Under the pieces are notes generated by a model. It was not told the origin of the DNA and searched no databases. It was given only the letters and a program-made list of their open reading frames with translations. Positions 30,581 through 42,728 of a stretch of DNA of 64,000 nucleotides are shown one piece after another; the stretch's first letter is position 1; the number at the start of each line of letters is the position of its first letter. Made by a program: the position numbers and the translations under genes. The stretch covers positions 11,247 to 75,246 of the forward strand of contig JAGRGU010000067.1 of the NCBI GenBank assembly GCA_020445335.1, given 5' to 3'. The stretch is from Gammaproteobacteria bacterium (GTDB lineage: Bacteria; Pseudomonadota; Gammaproteobacteria; Chromatiales; Chromatiaceae).

Positions 30581-30961
30581 GCGTGGTGTGGTTGCATACG
30601 GGATGCTCCGGGGGCTCCCGATGCTTATCCGGAATGGGTGTGATGCCAGTCCGGTTGATCGGTTAAGCAAGGCGCGGATCGCGAATTGCGGGAGTCGTAT
30701 AGCGACTGAGCAACCGGAGGTTACGACTGAATCACAGAATTGGCCGGCTGTAGCTAAGTAATAACAATAAACAACGATAAACATTATAAAAAAAGGTGAA
30801 ACGGTGTTCAGTACCCCGCAACGCGGGGAGCTGGAACGCAATGGATTGCCTGGTCTCTTCTAGTTGTACGGCAAAGGGTGGAGCCGGCTATCGCAGCTGC
30901 TCCAAAAATAGAGAGTGCACGGTGTCTCCAGGGGTGCCGCTGCAAATTGGAGATTAATGCA
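30581..30961 (+). other. long leader/intergenic region upstream of rpfF
   Basis: 381 bases without a supported gene. It contains an AT-rich tract (about 30755-30795) unlike the GC-rich surroundings, a short hairpin AGTCG/CGACT near 30693-30707 and a 6-bp hairpin CCCCGC-AAC-GCGGGG at 30814-30828 that lacks a following T run. An open frame from 30878 extends rpfF upstream but shows no family similarity. This is the likely promoter and leader region of rpfF. Confidence 0.5.
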
Positions 30962-31852
30962 ATGAGCGTTCAAGCAGCAGAAAACAGAAGCAACCAATTT
31001 GAGAATCTGGATCTGGTATTCGAACCGCAGCATCAGGTGGTGTGGGCACGCTTCAGGTATGCCGAGAGACCCTGCATGAGTCAGTCTCTGCTGCGTGACG
31101 TCGCGGCAGCGCAGCAGCTGATCGTCGAACAGGCGACCCGCGAATACCACGCGGGTAACAGCGGGCGGCTGAAGTATCAGGTGCTGGGTTCAGCCATGAA
31201 AGGGGTCTTCAGTCTTGGCGGCGATCTGGCCCATTTCGTGGAATTGATCAGGCGTGGTGACCGCGACCAGCTGAAGGTCTATGCAACCGCTTGCGTGGAG
31301 GTGCTCTACCGCTCCGCGACCAGCTACGGCCTGCCATTTACCACCATCTCGCTGGTTCAGGGCGAGGCGCTTGGCGGGGGCTTCGAAGCGGCGCTTTCGG
31401 CCAATCTGCTGATTGCCGAGAAACAGTCGCGGTTCGGATTCCCCGAGACCGTCTTCGGACTGTTTCCCGGCATGGGGGCTTTCAGTTTTCTGGCACGCAG
31501 ACTCAACCCCGGTCTGGCCAAACGGTTGATCAGCAGCGGCAAGGTGCACACAGCGGAGGAGCTCTACGACATGGGTGTTGTCGATCTCCTGGTCGAGGAG
31601 GGCGAGGGTGAGGAGGCGGTCTACGATTACATTCAGCGTCAGAAGACACGCAGCTCCGGGCTCTACGCGTTGGACAAGGTGGTGGAGCAGTACAACCCGC
31701 TGAAATACGAAGAGTTGATCGATGTGGTCGATCTCTGGGTCGATACCGCGCTTGAGCTGTCGCCCAAGAATCTGCGGCTGATGGAGTATCTGGTGGCTGC
31801 ACAGCGGCGCCGCTGGGTCGATACTACGCATCTGCGCTCGGTCGTGGTCTGA
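30962..31852 (+). CDS. rpfF: DSF synthase RpfF (crotonase-family)
   Basis: Makes cis-2-unsaturated fatty acid signals (DSF family) from 3-hydroxyacyl-ACP by combined dehydratase and thioesterase activity. The 296-residue crotonase-fold protein has the oxyanion-hole region FSLGGDLAHF (83-92). The two catalytic glutamates of Xanthomonas RpfF (141 and 161) are conserved here as Glu142 (GEALGGGFEAA) and Glu162 (FGFPETVFG). GGAG at 30949 supports ATG 30962. It converges on rpfC across a hairpin. With rpfC, an ACP, a ketoacyl synthase and rpfG nearby, the identification as a signal synthase rather than an enoyl-CoA hydratase is strong. Confidence 0.93.
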   Translation: MSVQAAENRSNQFENLDLVFEPQHQVVWARFRYAERPCMSQSLLRDVAAAQQLIVEQATREYHAGNSGRLKYQVLGSAMKGVFSLGGDLAHFVELIRRGDRDQLKVYATACVEVLYRSATSYGLPFTTISLVQGEALGGGFEAALSANLLIAEKQSRFGFPETVFGLFPGMGAFSFLARRLNPGLAKRLISSGKVHTAEELYDMGVVDLLVEEGEGEEAVYDYIQRQKTRSSGLYALDKVVEQYNPLKYEELIDVVDLWVDTALELSPKNLRLMEYLVAAQRRRWVDTTHLRSVVV

Positions 31853-31902: not shown

Positions 31903-34533
31903 TTAGTGCACTGCGGGCCTGGCAAACTCCAGCGCGCCGGAAAGCGCTTCTATGGCTCTGTCGACGCCCGCCTGGAGCGCCTCGATCTGTTGCTGCGCAC
32001 CTGTGCCGGCCAGGTCGCGTTCCGTGGATTGTTCTGCCGCCGCCGCCAGTGCCGCCAGCTCCTCCAGACCCAGGTTCAGACTCGAGCCTTTCAATGCGTG
32101 GGCGAGCGCGCGGTATCGTTTCTGGTCCTTACTCTTTGCTGCCGCCTGCATATCGTGCAGGATCTGGCGGCTGTCCCGAACCATGTTGTCGAACAGACGT
32201 CGCAGCAAGTCTCCGTCTCCGGAGAGTGCCCGAATCTCGCTCAACGTCTCCGGGTCCAATATCACCGGTTCATGTTTGCCTGAGTCTCTCTGCTGGCGTC
32301 CGTTTGGCGATCGATCCCCCCCAAACTCACTCTGCATGGCGATGCTCTGTCCGCTCGCATTGGCAACCGCGGAGAGCAGTTTGCCGGAAGAGACCGGCTT
32401 GGTGAGAAAGTATTTGATACCGGCTTCCTCGCACTCCCTGCGGGCGTTCACGGTGGCGTTGGCGGTCAGCATGATAAACGGTATCGGGTTGTCGTCGCTG
32501 GCGTTGGCAAATCTGTACATGCGGTAGGTATCTATCCCGCCCATTTCCGGCATCTGCATATCGACGATTACCAGGTCGTAATGCTCTCTCTCCAGCGCTT
32601 CAAGTACCTGCTCGCCGTTCTCCACCAGGTGATGCTGATGGCCCGCACGCTCGAGGATTCGCCCGGTTACTATGCGATTAATGCTGTTGTCTTCGGCCAC
32701 CAGAATCTTCAAAGGGCGCTGCGCGCTGCGGTTGCGCGTGAAGTGGTCAGACAGCGTGATCACCCCTTCGTCGCGCAGGTGGTTGACGCGTGAAGCGTGC
32801 AGCGCGTTGAACAGCAGTGCCTTGTCCAAGGGGCGATGGAGGAAGTAGATGGTGTTGCCGGACTGCTCCAGCTCTTCCGGCAGTACCTGGGTCTCCTCCG
32901 ACTGCACGATCAGGATGGTGATATTCGAGAATGCCAGTTCCTTGCTGAGCGAGACGAGGAAGCGGCTGGTCTCGGGATCGCAGGCCAGGTTGTCCAGAAT
33001 GATCACCTCAAACGGGCTGGCCTCGCTGTTGCCATGAATGAGCAGCCGCAGCGCCTCGCGCGTATTGGCGGCGTCTTTGTACGGGACCCCCCAGCCGGAG
33101 AGCGTGTGGGTGATATCGGATTCCTTACCCGGTTGGCGGCACAGGCGCATGACATGACACTCGTGTAGCTGGCGGATCTCCTCTTCATTGACCCACTCCC
33201 GCTGGTGCTCGAATTCGATATCGAACCAGAAGGTCGAACCGACACCTGGCGTACTCTGCAAGCGGATGCGCCCCCCCATCAACTCCACCAGCTGGCGCGC
33301 GATCGAGGTGCCGAGTCCGGTGCCGCCGAACCTGCGGGTGGTGCTCTCGTCGGCCTGGGCGAAGTTTTCGAAGATCCGGCGCTGGGCGGTCTCATCGATG
33401 CCGATTCCGGTATCGATCACCTCGAAGCGAATCAGTGAATGCGCGCCATCGGTGCGCACCGGGTGACAACGCAGTTCGACCGAGCCTCTTTCGGTAAACT
33501 TGATCGCGTTGCCAAGCAGATTGAGCAGTACCTGGCGAAGGTGGTGAGGGTCTCCGATCAGTCGATAGGGCGTCTCCAGACCGATGTGAGAGATCAGCTG
33601 CAACTGCTTTGCTTCAGCGCTGACGGTGAGCATTCTCAGGGTCGCGGCAATCAGTCGATGCAGGTCGAAACTGGTCTTTTCAAGTTCCAGTTTTCCAGCT
33701 TCGATCTTGGAGATGTCGAGAATGTCTTCAACCAGCTTCAGCAGGGTGTGCCCCGAAGCGCGGATGATCTCGGCATACTCTTTCGCTTCAGGCTCCATTT
33801 TGCAGGCACGCAGCAGATCTCCGGTGCCGATGATGCCGTTCAGGGGGGTACGTATTTCGTGGCTCATCCGCGCCAGAAACTCGCTCTTGGCTTGATTGGC
33901 GATCTCGGCGCGCTCACGCTCCGCCTGCAGACGGCGAATCAGTACCGCGATATAGCCGGGGAGTACGATCATCGCTACCAGCAGCCCTATGCCGATGGAG
34001 GTGTTCGCTTTCCAGAAGTCGTTCAGCATCAATGCGCCGCTGAACCCAGCTACCGACATCGCGGCCGAGAGATAGAGGTAGCGCTCTCCATAACGGAAGC
34101 CGTTGCCGAAAGTAATCCAGAGGCAGCCTGCCCACCAGGGCGCACCGATCTCTCCGGTAGTCATCATGGCGACGCTGAACGAACCGATATCGGCGATGAT
34201 TCCGAGGGTGATGCGGTGTGTGGAACGCCCCGGCCAGACCAGGAACGAGAGTAGTACCGCGATACCGAATCCCATGTGCACCGTGAAGAGCAGAATACCG
34301 CTCTCCACCAGCCAGGCTTCGCTCTCGATATCGTGCGCGACCAGGCTGAGATATAGCAGGATGAGTGCTATCATCACCACCCTGACGACAGCCTGTTCAA
34401 CCTCGGTGTTCGGATTCTCCCTGAAGGTATTGCGCAGGGGAGAAAAAAGGGCGCCAAGCAGCGCCGATCCCTGTCCGGATGAAGTTGGTGCGTTGCCCTT
34501 GTCGTCTCTTGTTGGACCGGTTTTTACCATCAT
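31903..34533 (-). CDS. rpfC: hybrid sensor histidine kinase RpfC (DSF receptor)
   Basis: Inner-membrane receptor for DSF that phosphorylates RpfG and, in Xanthomonas, also binds RpfF to hold back signal synthesis. In this 876-residue protein about five or six membrane helices (residues 50-200) are followed by HisKA with phospho-accepting His225 (SHEIRTPLNG) and HATPase_c (about 335-455, DTGIGI and GGTGLGTSIA). A degenerate receiver (about 465-595) lacks the acidic pair. A complete receiver with Asp658 (VIVDMQMPE) follows (about 608-730), then a C-terminal Hpt domain with His812 (LAHALKGSS). Xcc RpfC has 726 residues; the extra pseudo-receiver explains the difference. It is divergent from the ACP gene across 48 bases. 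Confidence 0.92.
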   Translation of the reverse strand: MMVKTGPTRDDKGNAPTSSGQGSALLGALFSPLRNTFRENPNTEVEQAVVRVVMIALILLYLSLVAHDIESEAWLVESGILLFTVHMGFGIAVLLSFLVWPGRSTHRITLGIIADIGSFSVAMMTTGEIGAPWWAGCLWITFGNGFRYGERYLYLSAAMSVAGFSGALMLNDFWKANTSIGIGLLVAMIVLPGYIAVLIRRLQAERERAEIANQAKSEFLARMSHEIRTPLNGIIGTGDLLRACKMEPEAKEYAEIIRASGHTLLKLVEDILDISKIEAGKLELEKTSFDLHRLIAATLRMLTVSAEAKQLQLISHIGLETPYRLIGDPHHLRQVLLNLLGNAIKFTERGSVELRCHPVRTDGAHSLIRFEVIDTGIGIDETAQRRIFENFAQADESTTRRFGGTGLGTSIARQLVELMGGRIRLQSTPGVGSTFWFDIEFEHQREWVNEEEIRQLHECHVMRLCRQPGKESDITHTLSGWGVPYKDAANTREALRLLIHGNSEASPFEVIILDNLACDPETSRFLVSLSKELAFSNITILIVQSEETQVLPEELEQSGNTIYFLHRPLDKALLFNALHASRVNHLRDEGVITLSDHFTRNRSAQRPLKILVAEDNSINRIVTGRILERAGHQHHLVENGEQVLEALEREHYDLVIVDMQMPEMGGIDTYRMYRFANASDDNPIPFIMLTANATVNARRECEEAGIKYFLTKPVSSGKLLSAVANASGQSIAMQSEFGGDRSPNGRQQRDSGKHEPVILDPETLSEIRALSGDGDLLRRLFDNMVRDSRQILHDMQAAAKSKDQKRYRALAHALKGSSLNLGLEELAALAAAAEQSTERDLAGTGAQQQIEALQAGVDRAIEALSGALEFARPAVH

Positions 34534-34830: not shown

Positions 34831-36036
34831 ATGACCAAAAAAGTGGTCGTAACCGGTCTTGGCGCACTCTCTGCTCTGGGCGGTAACAGGTACGAATTCT
34901 GGGATTCGCTACTCTCGGGAGAGAGCGGTATCCGCCCTCTGACAGGTGATTTTCCCGGACAGTTGAAGATTGTATCGGCCGCCCAGATTCAAAATTTCGA
35001 CAGTCAACTGCACTTCTCCGCCGACAGGCTCCCGCAACTGGACCGTTACTCGCAGTTAGCCCTCGTCGTTGCTCGCGAAGCGGTGACCGACGCCGGGTTG
35101 GATGCCATTGAGCTGCAATCCGCGGCGCTGGTCGCAGGCACCGGTTGCGGCGGAAAAGAGACCGACGAGCAGGCCTACCGGCAACTCTACCTCGACGGTC
35201 GCAAGCGTCTGCATCCGCTGACCATCCCGAAAGGGATGCCCAGCGCCCTGGCGAGCCAACTGAGCATGGATCTGGGTGTGACCGGGCCGGTGTTCGCCGT
35301 CACCAGCGCCTGTGCTTCGAGCAACCACGCGGTGGCTCAGGCATTGATGCTGGTGCGTAGCGGGATGGCCGAGGTCGCGCTCGCCGTCGGCTCCGATGCG
35401 CCATTCAGCTTCGGGTTGCTCAAAGCCTGGGAGGCGCTGCGCGTGTTGAGCCCGGACACCTGCCGCCCTTTCAGCGCCGATCGCAAAGGATTGGTGCTGG
35501 GAGAGGGGGCGGGTGCGTTGGTGCTCGAGTCGGAATCGCATGCGCGCCGGCGTGGCGCGCGGATATTCGCCGAGCTCCTGGGATGCGGCATGTCGGCGGA
35601 CGCCGGCCATATCACGGAGCCATCGGTGGATGGTGCTTCCCGGGCGATACGGAGTGCTCTGCACAATGCCGCGTGTTCTGCCAATGCTATCGACTACATC
35701 AATGCTCACGGGACCGGCACCGAACTCAACGATATCACCGAGACACGGGCGATCCGGCAGGCGCTGGGCGCGCAGGCGGAGCGGGTCGCCGTCTCGTCGA
35801 CCAAATCAATGCATGGTCACGCACTGGGCGCCGCCGGTGCGCTGGAACTGGTTGCGACGATCCTCGCGGTCTATACCCAGACCGTTCCCGCGACGCAGAA
35901 TTTTACCGTTGCGGGAGAAGGATGCGATCTCGACTATGTGCCGAACGATGCCCGCGAGATGAAACTACGCTGCGCACTCTCCAACTCGTTTGCGTTCGGG
36001 GGCCTGAACGCGGTTGTGGCGGTTGCTGCCTACTAG
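34831..36036 (+). CDS. beta-ketoacyl-ACP synthase, FabF type
   Basis: Condensing enzyme that elongates an acyl chain with malonyl-ACP. The 401-residue thiolase-fold protein carries the full KAS II active site: Cys161 (VTSACASSNHA), His293 (NAHGTGTELND), Lys325 and His330 (KSMHGHALGAAG). Conserved FGG-type GGLNAVV ends the protein. It sits three bases behind the ACP gene, so the pair probably works together. No ketoreductase, dehydratase or malonyltransferase is present here, so these steps must be shared with general fatty-acid synthesis. Its stop lies 19 bases from the end of the convergent methyltransferase gene. Confidence 0.92.
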   Translation: MTKKVVVTGLGALSALGGNRYEFWDSLLSGESGIRPLTGDFPGQLKIVSAAQIQNFDSQLHFSADRLPQLDRYSQLALVVAREAVTDAGLDAIELQSAALVAGTGCGGKETDEQAYRQLYLDGRKRLHPLTIPKGMPSALASQLSMDLGVTGPVFAVTSACASSNHAVAQALMLVRSGMAEVALAVGSDAPFSFGLLKAWEALRVLSPDTCRPFSADRKGLVLGEGAGALVLESESHARRRGARIFAELLGCGMSADAGHITEPSVDGASRAIRSALHNAACSANAIDYINAHGTGTELNDITETRAIRQALGAQAERVAVSSTKSMHGHALGAAGALELVATILAVYTQTVPATQNFTVAGEGCDLDYVPNDAREMKLRCALSNSFAFGGLNAVVAVAAY

Positions 36037-36055: not shown

Positions 36056-37111
36056 TCAAGTGGGTCGTGTGAAAAGGAATTGGCCGTTGCCATAGATTTC
36101 GCCGTTGCAGGGGGCGAACAGGACCACTTTACTGAGCACGAAGTAGTCGTTCCAATGACGAATCTGACGTTCATCGAGCACACTTCCCTGGAGCCGTTCA
36201 ATCGACTGCCAATAGCGCAGATGCCAGGCGTCCAGCGTCCTCCAGTAGTTGAGGCCGTTCAGATACCAGCTCCGCTGCAATTGAAAATGCCCGGTCTGGC
36301 ATTCGATGATGGATTTCGGCCAGATATGGCCCCCCGGGAAAAATCGTCCGATCAGCGTCTTGTCGGAGTCATGGTAGTGGGGCAGCAAGGGGTTTGAGAC
36401 GATTAGGTGAAGAAAAAGCCGGCCACCGGGCTTCAGCATCAGCGCGATCTTTTCGAACGCAAGCTTGAGGTTGTGCACATGCTCGAATGCGCCCACGGCA
36501 AATACCAGATCATACTCTCCGACGCCGATTCTCGCCGGCTCAACACTGCCGAAATCATCGGTGATCAGATCGAGTTTGCAACCGTAGAGCGGGTGTGACG
36601 GATCGTTTTGACAACGTTTTATATAGTCGCTCTGCACCCGGCTGGGGGTGATGCTGGTGATGTTGCAACCGGGATGGCACTCCGCCAGATGGGTTTCGAG
36701 TGGGCCGAAACCACAGCCGATATTTAGGACCCTCTCATTTTCACCGATTTCGGCACGGATACAGATTAACTCCAGCTTCGCCCGTTGCGCCTGCTCCAGA
36801 GTGGCGTGTGAGCCGAGGATGCTCTCCGGCCGCTCACCGTAATAGGCCATGGTGTAGGCGAGATATCGCTTGTCCAGGAATCCCCGAAACAACTCGAAGG
36901 GGGCATCGAAATGCTCCTCCATCAGGGGACCGGTCTGGTCCCACATCGGCCCCTGGTCGGTCTGAATCAGCGCTTCGGTCAGTAAAACCGGATTCGTCGT
37001 CAGTGCTCGGTATTCGCGGCTGAAGTATCGTGTCAGTCGCCGCTCGTAAAGTGTGAGTTCTTCCGAACCCTGTGCAAAGATGCCTGCTTTGTGAAGACGC
37101 TGTCTCAGCAT
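36056..37111 (-). CDS. cyclopropane-fatty-acid-synthase-like SAM methyltransferase
   Basis: A 351-residue relative of Cfa, which adds a methylene from SAM across acyl-chain double bonds. The SAM motif I is VLNIGCGFGPLETHLA (about 128-143). Compared from memory with the E. coli Cfa bicarbonate site (Cys139, Glu239, His266, Ile268, Tyr317), Glu210 (FEHV), His235 and Ile237 (LHLI) and Tyr289 (GLNYWRTL) are retained. The cysteine of SCAYW is replaced by Met88 in YTMAYY. FFPGGHIW and the C-terminal YFVLSKVVLFAPC-type region also match. It is the last gene of the rpfG operon, 24 bases after the RpfC paralogue. Its substrate is unknown; the DSF signal or its precursor is a guess from context. Confidence 0.85.
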   Translation of the reverse strand: MLRQRLHKAGIFAQGSEELTLYERRLTRYFSREYRALTTNPVLLTEALIQTDQGPMWDQTGPLMEEHFDAPFELFRGFLDKRYLAYTMAYYGERPESILGSHATLEQAQRAKLELICIRAEIGENERVLNIGCGFGPLETHLAECHPGCNITSITPSRVQSDYIKRCQNDPSHPLYGCKLDLITDDFGSVEPARIGVGEYDLVFAVGAFEHVHNLKLAFEKIALMLKPGGRLFLHLIVSNPLLPHYHDSDKTLIGRFFPGGHIWPKSIIECQTGHFQLQRSWYLNGLNYWRTLDAWHLRYWQSIERLQGSVLDERQIRHWNDYFVLSKVVLFAPCNGEIYGNGQFLFTRPT

Positions 37112-37135: not shown

Positions 37136-39025
37136 TTAGTCGAAATGGCTGTCATTTTCCGAAGCGTCCTGTCCAATCAGGTACGCATGAAGCGCATTAT
37201 TGGAGAGGCGGCAGCATTCGGTGATCTCCTGCAACAGTGCTTGTGCGGTCTCTGGAAAATCCGCATCGCCGATGCGCGTCGCAGCGGTTGCGAGAGTGAA
37301 CAGCTTGATCGTGCCGAGACCTCCCGCGCCATCTTTCAAAGCATGGCCAAGATCTCGAAACTGGCCGGCTTGGCCCTTTTCTGCGGCTCGCTTCATTGCC
37401 GTCAGGATACGACGATTGTCGCGGTTGAAACTGTCGATAAGATCGGAGAGCAGTTTCATGCCGCCGCCAAGACGTTCGATCTCCATCAGCCTGTTGGTAT
37501 CCAACGTGCTGCCGCTCTCGGCTCCATCTGAACCCGCTGCCGTGCGTTGCCCGCCACGCAGCAGGTGGGGCTCGCTGCTGATCTCCTTGGCGACCTTTTC
37601 GATTGCCTCAAGGTAGACCGAAGGCTCGGCGTGGCGCTCAATCGTGGCGCTGATTCCCGCGTCCCGGCAGCGTGCAATGAATTCCGCTTCCTTTTTTTCA
37701 TCCTCGATCAGCATGATGAAGGGAACCCACTGACGGTCTATACGCGTGAAGCGGTAGAGTTTGAACGCCTCCAGCCCGGAGACCTCCCGGATGTTGCTCG
37801 AAACCAACGCCATATCGAAACGGTGACTGTCGAGTGCATCGAGCACACGCGCGCCATTGTTGACGCTGAATACACGATGACCGGCTTTCTTAAGCAACGC
37901 CATCAATCGTTGCCGGGTGCTGAATTCGTCGTCCGCGACCAGAAGGCTGAGCGGCTGGTGGCCCGATCGCGTGGCCACATGATCGATCAGCCTGACCACC
38001 TGCTGATCCGCTTCCGGTTTTGCGTAAGTGCTCTGTAAGGCATCGAAAAGAAAGGTTTTGCTCACCGGTGTCGAAAGCAGGCGCGTGTAACCGGCGTGTA
38101 GCAGCTTGTCGCGTTGCCGCCCCTGATTATCGAAACCGATGTGGATCAGATAGAGCCCCTGGAGCAGGGCTTCTGAGCGCACCAGTTGTGCGAACTGGGC
38201 ATCATCCATCCCTATTCTGCCATGATCTACTATGACACCGTGGAAAGGTCCGGCCGATTTGTGGGCATCGATAAGGGCATGCAGCGCGCGAGCGGCATTC
38301 TCGCACTTGACGGTCAGCGTGCCCCAGGTTTCAAGCTGTTCGACGATTCCGTAGCGATCTTCCATGTCACTGGAGAGAAGCAGTACGCGTTTGCCCTGAA
38401 GATTGTCCCCATTTGCCACACGCGGCGGTGGTCGGGGCAGCTGTGCCTGCTCCTCGTCCTGACTTTGGACCGGGGTGGCGGCCTCATCCTGCCGGGCAGG
38501 GACTGCAGCAGGGGTCACCTGGCGGTATAGCAGAGGCAGCAGCAGGGCGCAGAGCAGAGTCGTACCCAGCAGCAGATTTTGTTGCCAGTAGTCATTGATG
38601 AGCAGCAGAGCGCCGAATCCTGCAGCGATCGGAGCAGCCAGCAAAAGTAGATGAGAGGCACCGAAGCGCCGCAAGTGATCGAATCCGACGACTCCGTAGA
38701 GCAGTGCGAGGGGAGCAGTCTGCGCCGGGCCGGTGTGCAACAGCGCGGTCAGCATGACGCAGTCGAGCAACAAGCCAAGGAGGGGACGCCAACCCGTAAC
38801 CCTGGCGTCAGCTCTTACCCAGAGCCAGATCGCGAGGGGAAGCAGCAGCAGGATCGTCGCCTGTGCCGTAAGCAGAGACAACGGCGGCTGGGTCTGGAGA
38901 AAAAAAAGCGCGTAGAAACCGACAGCACCCGCCACCACCCGGATGCCGGCTTGATGTCGCTCATGGTTGACCAGATCGACCGTGGTCGTCTGATCTTCGC
39001 TCTTCACTGGGGAAGTCTCTTCCAT
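37136..39025 (-). CDS. kinase-less RpfC paralogue (membrane domain, two receiver-like domains, Hpt)
   Basis: A 629-residue protein with five or six N-terminal membrane helices whose last part (FGALLLINDYWQQ) parallels RpfC (FSGALMLNDFWKA). It has no HisKA or ATPase domain. Two receiver-like domains follow: the first keeps a central Asp (VIVDHG); the second keeps the acidic pair (VADDE) but has Ser409 at the phospho-acceptor site. A C-terminal Hpt domain with His561 (LGHALKDGAGG) ends it. Xanthomonas RpfH, encoded in the same place, is only a membrane domain related to RpfC. ATG 39025 was used; a TTG at 39049 overlapping the rpfG stop is possible. Confidence 0.85.
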   Translation of the reverse strand: MEETSPVKSEDQTTTVDLVNHERHQAGIRVVAGAVGFYALFFLQTQPPLSLLTAQATILLLLPLAIWLWVRADARVTGWRPLLGLLLDCVMLTALLHTGPAQTAPLALLYGVVGFDHLRRFGASHLLLLAAPIAAGFGALLLINDYWQQNLLLGTTLLCALLLPLLYRQVTPAAVPARQDEAATPVQSQDEEQAQLPRPPPRVANGDNLQGKRVLLLSSDMEDRYGIVEQLETWGTLTVKCENAARALHALIDAHKSAGPFHGVIVDHGRIGMDDAQFAQLVRSEALLQGLYLIHIGFDNQGRQRDKLLHAGYTRLLSTPVSKTFLFDALQSTYAKPEADQQVVRLIDHVATRSGHQPLSLLVADDEFSTRQRLMALLKKAGHRVFSVNNGARVLDALDSHRFDMALVSSNIREVSGLEAFKLYRFTRIDRQWVPFIMLIEDEKKEAEFIARCRDAGISATIERHAEPSVYLEAIEKVAKEISSEPHLLRGGQRTAAGSDGAESGSTLDTNRLMEIERLGGGMKLLSDLIDSFNRDNRRILTAMKRAAEKGQAGQFRDLGHALKDGAGGLGTIKLFTLATAATRIGDADFPETAQALLQEITECCRLSNNALHAYLIGQDASENDSHFD

Positions 39026-39045: not shown

Positions 39046-40098
39046 TCAACCGTTTCCGACTGATTTGCTTAGGCTGTTCCGGATAGACATTATTTTTTCC
39101 AGTTTGTTGAAAAAGGCATCGACACAGTCCGGATCGAAATGCCTGCCTCGCTGTTCTCGCATATAGCTTAGCGTATTGTCGACCGACCACGCCTTTTTAT
39201 AAGGGCGGGTTGACAGGAGTGCGTCAAACACGTCGGCTACGGCGACAACCCTTGCTTCAATAGGCGTATTTTTCCCAGTCAGTCCGTTCGGGTAACCATG
39301 GCCATCGAATCTTTCGTGGTGACCGAGTGCGATCAGCGCGCCGGTTTTAAGAAAGCAGGAGGGGCTGTCGCGCAGAATCTCGTAGCCGATCAGGGTATGG
39401 ACCTGCATGCTGCTCCACTCCTGCCGGGTGAGTCTTCCGGGTTTCAACAGTATCTGGTCGGGTACGCCGATCTTGCCGATATCGTGCATCGGTGCGGCAT
39501 GGCGGATGACATTGCAGGTCTCTTTTTCCAGGCCCAGTTCGCTGGCGATGAGGAACGCGTATTCGGCCATTCGAACCACATGGTTACCCGTCTCCTCGTC
39601 ACGATATTCGCCCGCTTTGGCCAGTCTCAACAGCGTCTCTTTTTCACGTTCCTCGAGCTCGGAAGTCTTGGTATGAACCTCCTGTTCCAGCCAGCGCGCG
39701 CGATCCTTGATGATCTGCTGCTGTTGGCTGAGCTGCAACAGATTACGGCAACGTGCGCGACATTCATGATGATCGATGGGTTTGGAGAGAAAGTCCGTGG
39801 CGCGTGCCTCGAGTGCGCGGTAGCGGACCGACTTGTCGTCCACACAGGTGATGATCACGATTGGAACATCCATACAGGCCGGTATCTGGCGGACCCATTG
39901 GGTGAACTCGACGCCATCCATCACCGGCATCTTGTAGTCGGTGATGATCAGGTCGGTGCGGTTCTTCTTGGCCCAATCCAGCGCCCGAACCGGGTCGGAG
40001 AAGCTCTCTACGTGGATATCCCTATCAATTGATCGGATCAGCTCCTCAAGGATCATCCTGCTTATCGATTGATCATCGAGAATTAACACGGTGGACAT
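39046..40098 (-). CDS. rpfG: RpfG-type response regulator with HD-GYP phosphodiesterase domain
   Basis: Output of the DSF pathway: a cyclic-di-GMP phosphodiesterase activated by phosphotransfer from RpfC. The 350-residue protein has an N-terminal receiver with Asp8-Asp9 and phospho-acceptor Asp54 (IITDYKMPVMDG), a coiled linker (about 125-160), and an HD-GYP domain. The HD-GYP domain shows His205-Asp206 (MHDIGK), HHERFDGHGYP at 260-270 and VADVFDALLSTRPYKKAW. All catalytic signatures are intact. It is the first gene of the operon that continues into the RpfC paralogue and the Cfa-like gene. Confidence 0.95.
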   Translation of the reverse strand: MSTVLILDDQSISRMILEELIRSIDRDIHVESFSDPVRALDWAKKNRTDLIITDYKMPVMDGVEFTQWVRQIPACMDVPIVIITCVDDKSVRYRALEARATDFLSKPIDHHECRARCRNLLQLSQQQQIIKDRARWLEQEVHTKTSELEEREKETLLRLAKAGEYRDEETGNHVVRMAEYAFLIASELGLEKETCNVIRHAAPMHDIGKIGVPDQILLKPGRLTRQEWSSMQVHTLIGYEILRDSPSCFLKTGALIALGHHERFDGHGYPNGLTGKNTPIEARVVAVADVFDALLSTRPYKKAWSVDNTLSYMREQRGRHFDPDCVDAFFNKLEKIMSIRNSLSKSVGNG

Positions 40099-41608: not shown

Positions 41609-42325
41609 TCATGCGCTTGACTTATTGCGATGCCGCCTGAAGCCGAGGCCGACCAGGCCAAGACTCATCAATGTCAGAGTGGCGGGCTCCGGTACTTCCA
41701 CCCAGATGCGGTACGCGAAATCCTGGTCCGTTATCGAACTCCAGGGTCCGTCGTGCGGTCCGGCCACAACGCTTGGTGCACCGCCTACGGAACGCATGGC
41801 GTCATACTGTTCGCTGCCGACCGTGGGACCGGCACCGAGCGCATCCGCCCAGTTCCAGGGGGTGGAGGAAGAGGCCGAAGCGTTGGCCACGCTGAACCAG
41901 TAGTCCTGCCCGCTGGTCAGTAGTACATCCATTGGCGACCAGTTGGCAGAGAAGAAAAATATCCCATCGCCATCGCTATCTACACCGGCGGCGGATACGA
42001 AATGCTGGGCGATGGCTGGCCAGGAAGGGGCACCGCTGGAGTCGCTATGGAACGTGATCTCCCAAAGGTCGCTTGCCGCTCCGGCGGTGACCGGTGCGGT
42101 GCCCCACCAGTCGACGCGCACCACGCGGCCGCTCACCGCGGGAGTGAAATCATCGGCGAGTACCGGACCGGTGGTACCGTGTATGGAGGCGTGCGTGGAG
42201 TCGACGCCGTTGCCCGGGCCACCCTCGGTCCACTCGTAGGCGATGATGGACGCCCTGACTACACCCGAAAACACCAACAATAGAGCGAGGAGCGTGCTTT
42301 GCCATTTTACTGATCCGGTCGTCAT
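41609..42325 (-). CDS. secreted PEP-CTERM protein
   Basis: A 238-residue exported protein. A signal peptide (STLLALLLVFSGVVRASI, about residues 10-27) is followed by a mature part rich in Ser, Gly, Ala and Trp with no recognised enzyme domain. The C-terminal sorting signal has VPEPATL, a hydrophobic helix MSLGLVGLGF and the basic end RRHRNKSS. Such proteins are anchored and processed by exosortase (EpsH/XrtA), which is not in this window, and usually accompany exopolysaccharide. ATG 42325 is preferred over an ATG four codons upstream because GGAGG lies five bases before it. A clear terminator follows. Confidence 0.88.
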   Translation of the reverse strand: MTTGSVKWQSTLLALLLVFSGVVRASIIAYEWTEGGPGNGVDSTHASIHGTTGPVLADDFTPAVSGRVVRVDWWGTAPVTAGAASDLWEITFHSDSSGAPSWPAIAQHFVSAAGVDSDGDGIFFFSANWSPMDVLLTSGQDYWFSVANASASSSTPWNWADALGAGPTVGSEQYDAMRSVGGAPSVVAGPHDGPWSSITDQDFAYRIWVEVPEPATLTLMSLGLVGLGFRRHRNKSSA

Positions 42326-42728
42326 ATCCACCTCCATACTTGTTTATAAATATGCAGTGAAAAACCCTGCATAAAATAAGCCTTATAATAAAAGTGTATA
42401 AAAAACAGTATCTAATGTTTTTAAACAGAGAGATCTTCTTTGGATTGTGTAAAAAATACTGACATAGGCTCCACCATGTTTATGCTTTCGAAGCTTCTGT
42501 CGGTAAGCTGCAGAGAGCGGAAAATGCACCTTTCCGGTTCAATGGAGAAATTGAGAAGGGAGTGATGCGCGGCAGGACCGACGAACCGGCATCCGGTCGG
42601 CGTCTGTGTACGGGTTGTGTGGGTGAAACAGCCTTCTCTGCACAGGTTCCGAGGATGGATCACCGGCAGAGCACGCGGAACATTGGGTTCCAGACAGACG
42701 TGTACGTCGGACTCGATGAGAAGGTAGT
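42326..42728. other. intergenic region between the PEP-CTERM gene and tRNA-Glu
   Basis: About 400 bases. The part next to the PEP-CTERM gene (42345-42425) is strongly AT-rich and probably holds its promoter; no sigma-54 type GG-N10-GC pair was found by eye. An 80-codon open frame on the minus strand (42421-42663) has no ribosome site or family features and is not called. Confidence 0.4.

Follow-up and report, generated by a model that had tools for sequence, protein, structure and literature searches.

The rpf cluster of the window

The stretch of DNA analyzed here (the window, 64,000 nucleotides) carries a cluster of rpf genes containing an ORF on the reverse strand at 37136..39025, with its ATG at 39025 and its stop at 37136. 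The 629 aa product is a membrane-anchored, kinase-less paralog of RpfC, the hybrid histidine kinase that senses diffusible signal (DSF), and we coined the label RpfX (gene rpfX) for this protein and its orthologs. Checking of the ORF upheld the coordinates and strand assigned in an earlier reading of the sequence alone; an alternative, longer GTG ORF reaching 39190 merely overlaps the neighboring rpfG.

rpfG (39046..40098, reverse strand), encoding a receiver and an HD domain, lies 20 bases upstream of rpfX on the same strand and is its likely partner. Directly downstream is a gene for a Cfa-like methyltransferase (36056..37111, reverse strand), and the cluster also holds a FabF-like ketosynthase gene (34831..36036, forward strand), an rpfC encoding a complete hybrid kinase with a canonical Hpt motif, HALKG (31903..34533, reverse strand; RpfC1 type, see below), and a homolog of the DSF synthase gene rpfF (30965..31852, forward strand), the start codon of which is uncertain, the ORF opening at 30878. 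The ketosynthase and methyltransferase remain in the rpf cluster of many relatives and could tailor a DSF-type fatty acid signal. Elsewhere in the window, positions 41609-42337 (reverse strand) encode a small protein that looks secreted and ends in a PEP-CTERM-like sequence (VPEPATLTLMSLGLVGLGFRRHR).

Domain architecture of RpfX

RpfX aligns with the window RpfC over the pseudo-receiver, receiver, and Hpt regions (BLASTP, 30% identity, E 2e-39), with a separate match between the membrane domains (28%, E 3e-10). The parallel in domain order drawn by the sequence-only reading is borne out by these matches, and the membrane domain of RpfX is related to that of RpfC. Pfam recognizes a receiver at residues 362-475 (E 6e-10), a sub-threshold Hpt (14.8 bits against a cut-off of 24.6), and neither HisKA nor HATPase in RpfX, whereas the window RpfC shows all of these domains. 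The final membrane helix stops near residue 170 and pseudo-receiver 1 begins near 213; in between, a linker of some 40 residues takes the place of HisKA and the ATPase. Because the matching stretch of the window RpfC holds its whole kinase core (215-441), a hidden kinase in RpfX can be ruled out, and the claimed absence of HisKA and ATPase stands on both Pfam and the domain borders. A local deletion or assembly artifact was likewise ruled out, RpfX being carried by 51 genomes, single-contig ones included.

In a structural model of the whole protein, membrane helices fall between residues 15 and 170 (38516..38983, reverse strand, as are all RpfX features), followed by pseudo-receiver 1 (213-332; 38030..38389), receiver 2 (360-484; 37574..37948), and a helical bundle, the pseudo-Hpt domain (510-628; 37142..37498); the mean pLDDT of 71 and pTM of 0.29 make the arrangement of the domains unreliable. 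Pseudo-receiver 1 lacks the lysine that is also missing from the window RpfC. A structural search with the whole model was swamped by receiver matches, and the Hpt was folded separately. Modeled alone (pLDDT 86), it matched HptB and the ArcB HPt at TM 0.85, and a profile of the region likewise had the ArcB HPt as its first match (E 1e-5). At the level of the predicted structure, the C-terminal bundle is confirmed to have the four-helix HPt fold.

Distribution and gene neighborhood

Searches covered 55 relatives, a scan of named genomes, and then all 210 genomes of the family of the window bacterium, many of which are drafts. RpfX orthologs were found in 51 of the 210, distributed over 12 genera and including several Sedimenticola, symbionts of the tubeworms Escarpia and Lamellibrachia, and the lucinid clam symbionts Candidatus Thiodiazotropha; these names suggest that the family is Sedimenticolaceae. 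No kinase-less RpfX was confirmed outside the family among 369 genomes sampled across the class; the candidates in G506 and G513 were short matches cut by contig ends, that in G506 showing part of a kinase. Our literature searches found no paper joining DSF with Thiodiazotropha and, for RpfC and Sedimenticola, only a tubeworm symbiont genome paper.

Wherever a locus has rpfG in view, rpfX is the next gene downstream and shares its strand. Most of the gaps between the two measure -4 to 33 bases; those of the tubeworm symbionts and a small number of other loci measure 144-291 bases. Typically the cluster runs rpfG, rpfX, cfa, fabF (opposite strand), rpfC, rpfF (opposite strand), and 49 of the 51 rpfX genomes contain a further RpfC-type match. 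The frequent placement of cfa directly after rpfX could mean that RpfX is a scaffold for the adjoining methyltransferase, which would tailor a signal or lipids at the membrane, but this role is very improbable given that cfa does not adjoin rpfX in genus g81 or Thiodiazotropha, that cfa and fabF occur without rpfX in G229, and that an apparent RpfX-Cfa fusion in G080 was rejected, a run of unknown bases separating its two parts.

Several local variations were seen. Thiodiazotropha genomes (L056-L058, L060, L061; L135-L141) have two rpfC loci, one convergent with rpfX and the other beside rpfF, which is located elsewhere with its own RpfC having a canonical Hpt that reads HAIKG (Gly four residues after the His, position H+4). 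In one of these genomes (G009) the rpfF-linked RpfC is split into two open frames (L135:3983-6554). The rpfX of the Escarpia spicata symbiont (L055:6851-8896, L116) is disrupted, leaving two open frames (506 and 157 codons), through either decay or sequencing error. Many relatives (L046:4846-5643, L051:4522-5349, and others) encode a protein of about 265 aa between thrH and rpfG, the receiver-like C-terminus of which matches the receiver region of RpfX; no gene of this kind occupies that place in the window.

Descent of RpfX and relation to RpfH

Trees were built on the receiver-receiver-Hpt part with 44 and 60 rows. All RpfX formed one clade in both (support 99/97 and 100/98, respectively), and the window RpfC fell in a separate group, RpfC1. 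The tree neighbors of RpfX are kinase-bearing RpfC proteins, here called RpfC2, the joining branch being moderately supported (88/86), and several RpfC2 genes sit directly after rpfG (genus g77, G085, and G012b). As RpfX is a single clade nested among kinase-bearing RpfC2, several of them beside rpfG, it apparently descends from an old RpfC2 by a single loss of the kinase core, and not from the adjacent RpfC1. Both kinase-bearing paralogs occur in one cluster in G012 (L036), where the consecutive genes are rpfG, RpfC2, rpfF, and RpfC1, with both sensor genes intact.

Judged from close pairs, in which dN/dS is 0.07-0.29 for RpfX and 0.09-0.20 for RpfC of the same genomes, RpfX is under purifying selection. 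That it is a decaying duplicate without function might be read from its lost catalytic residues and the broken rpfX of the Escarpia spicata symbiont; values of dN/dS well under 1, its presence in 12 genera, and the conservation of an invariant Asp565 together with other clade-specific positions make decay highly improbable.

RpfH, reportedly described in 2000, is the kinase-less membrane protein whose slot the sequence-only reading assigned to RpfX. It has no clear role known in Xanthomonas, and four genes were changed in the mutant (PMC3744752). The assignment holds for position: rpfX follows rpfG and precedes rpfC on the same strand, with cfa and fabF (the latter on the other strand) intervening in the window. 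It fails for descent. G488, judged Xanthomonadaceae-like because its RpfF scores above the NCBIfam cut-off, has a 910 aa ORF that begins within the end of rpfG (L127:5089-7821) and joins an RpfH-like membrane domain in frame to RpfC. In the tree, where it is the one RpfH-like sequence, this domain groups with Xanthomonadaceae RpfC at 100/99 and not with RpfX. On this phylogenetic evidence RpfX is not orthologous to Xanthomonas RpfH, and a kinase-less RpfC copy after rpfG seems to have arisen twice, in the Xanthomonadaceae (RpfH) and in the family of the window bacterium.

Membrane domain

The membrane part of RpfX evolves far faster than that of RpfC. Its helix count is about five or more for the window protein and its tubeworm-symbiont orthologs, about four for most of those from Thiodiazotropha, and two for those from Sedimenticola and several others; G083, G084, and G071 have no helix left. 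The DSF-sensing motif of RpfC, R-x-D-S-E-x-x-Q (PMC5391125), was found in none of 31 RpfX and, in relaxed form, in 13 of 38 RpfC, the strict form being missing from the window RpfC as well.

These observations bear on a further proposal of the sequence-only reading, a decoy receptor, taken here as one for DSF that soaks up signal; the membrane domain might equally form dead heterodimers. The homology of this domain to that of RpfC and the E..Q pair of the sensing segment, kept in the window RpfX, would fit either version, but a domain reduced or gone in many orthologs does not, and the missing motif is no more than supportive of this objection, since the window RpfC lacks the strict form too. 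We consider a decoy very improbable and infer that the membrane part is mainly an anchor and not a conserved signal sensor.

Receiver 2 and pseudo-Hpt residues

Receiver 2 keeps D365 and D366 and has Ser409 in place of the phospho-Asp, Ile440 in place of the Thr, and Arg464 in place of the Lys, so that the Ser409 and the missing Lys pointed out previously are both confirmed. The phospho-Asp is present in 8 of 31 RpfX and the second acidic residue in 2 of 31; in the RpfC comparison set these two residues and the Hpt His are each present in 37 of 37. His561 (codon 37343..37345) is indeed retained in the window protein, as had been noted, and in 20 of the 31 orthologs. It is replaced in the other 11 by Gln (6), Leu (3), or Gly (2), losses that fall on at least three branches of the RpfX tree.

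By contrast, Asp565, four residues after the His (codon 37331..37333), is invariant in all 31 orthologs, even those without the His, and stands where an HPt usually has a small residue (Gly, Ser, or Ala). At the same position, 29 of the 37 RpfC have Gly, 3 (from alphaproteobacteria) have Ser, and 5, every one from Thiodiazotropha, have Asp. Asp at H+4 was reported in 0.04% of surveyed HPts (4 of ~10,000), and the G68E substitution at this position in yeast Ypd1 lowers phosphoryl acceptance to 0.3% of wild type while leaving binding to Sln1-R1 intact (Kd 0.5 uM versus 0.94 for wild type), the comparison being with Glu in a eukaryotic protein, as Asp is absent from the Ypd1 substitutions tested (PMC6341664). 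Asp at H+4 may not always abolish transfer in this family, because the rpfX-convergent RpfC of five Thiodiazotropha species carries it despite an intact kinase, receiver, and His; against this, related genomes have another RpfC with Gly at H+4.

A phosphate sink or auxiliary Hpt resembling RcsD, as also entertained by the sequence-only reading, would be in keeping with the His561 and HPt fold of the window protein. It is nevertheless scarcely credible for a family with a dead receiver 2, with the His lost from 11 of 31 members, and with an invariant Asp565 where Glu abolishes acceptance in Ypd1 (PMC6341664). The pattern of the pseudo-Hpt, the dead receiver 2, and the shrinking membrane domain together disfavor both the sink and the decoy. 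The preservation of RpfX without its phosphate-handling parts suggests that it works by gripping partners rather than by passing phosphate.

Proposed partners and mechanism

Two partners are plausible for such a binding protein, RpfG and RpfF. RpfX could bind RpfF via its dead receiver 2, holding or releasing the DSF synthase and so providing a second sequestering or partner-swapping site. Receiver 2 has as its best PDB match 3m6m_D, in which the receiver of RpfC is bound to RpfF (E 8e-12; next match 7e-7), and in Xanthomonas the RpfC receiver-RpfF interaction represses DSF synthesis without phosphorelay, with partner swapping having been proposed (PMC4504480). On the other hand, rpfX is coupled to rpfG and not to rpfF, which in Thiodiazotropha lies elsewhere with its own RpfC. 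The RpfC receiver residues contacting RpfF, reportedly Q496 and E504 (He et al. 2006), correspond to Arg and His in the window RpfX, but these positions are variable among local RpfC too. Binding of, or competition for, RpfF is ranked second to RpfG binding and regarded as unlikely.

RpfG is the most likely client because rpfX and rpfG are neighbors in every lineage, even with rpfC or rpfF elsewhere, although this adjacency could be a matter of inheritance and not of function. The reading that we favor, at about even chances, is that RpfX is a preserved membrane-anchored pseudo-relay protein that docks receivers, most likely that of RpfG, without phosphotransfer, and acts as a brake or tether on RpfG. 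An old RpfC2-type copy would have remained beside rpfG, lost HisKA and the ATPase once in the ancestor of the family, and been kept as a binding protein, its pseudo-Hpt docking receiver domains while being unable to pass phosphate. At the membrane, RpfX would hold RpfG, an HD-type c-di-GMP phosphodiesterase, or competitively keep it from the Hpt of RpfC. It would thus come between the intact, DSF-sensing RpfC and the output of RpfG, raising the activation threshold of RpfG. A more specific version, in which a membrane-bound bacterial pseudo-HPt from a gutted quorum sensor clamps the RpfG receiver via the invariant H+4 Asp, with the same slot filled independently in the Xanthomonadaceae by RpfH, is put forward tentatively and is more doubtful than the general reading.

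Comparison with known systems

RpfX resembles RpfC in its membrane domain, the order of receiver and Hpt, its place in the same cluster, and common descent, and differs in having no HisKA or ATPase, a dead receiver 2, Asp at H+4, and a short linker. RcsD and RetS are membrane sensor paralogs with degenerate kinase parts that either assist or oppose a sister kinase; the Hpt of RcsD works and RetS retains a kinase-like core, whereas RpfX lacks such a core and probably also a working Hpt. The plant pseudo-HPt AHP6 inhibits a phosphorelay, and is thought to do so by competing for partners (PMC7402358). It has an HPt fold unable to relay, as RpfX probably does, but AHP6 is a plant protein that has lost the His, while RpfX is bound to the membrane and has the Asp at H+4 as its fixed change.

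Among bacterial proteins, LFTS_00515 of Leptospirillum ferriphilum, a kinase-less receiver and Hpt protein encoded beside RpfC and RpfF, was interpreted in the original paper as half of a divided RpfC (PMC8357829); compared by its description, it has a layout similar to that of RpfX, but the window also has a complete RpfC. RpfH and RpfX are both kinase-less RpfC copies placed directly after rpfG. RpfH consists of the membrane domain only, whereas RpfX keeps the receivers and Hpt, with the membrane part dispensable. Retention of a kinase-less RpfC copy next to rpfG thus seems to have two independent examples, RpfX being the second. The residue pattern of RpfX predicts binding without transfer, via Asp565, and, if this is true, the protein would add a nonenzymatic layer to DSF signaling in tubeworm and lucinid clam symbionts.
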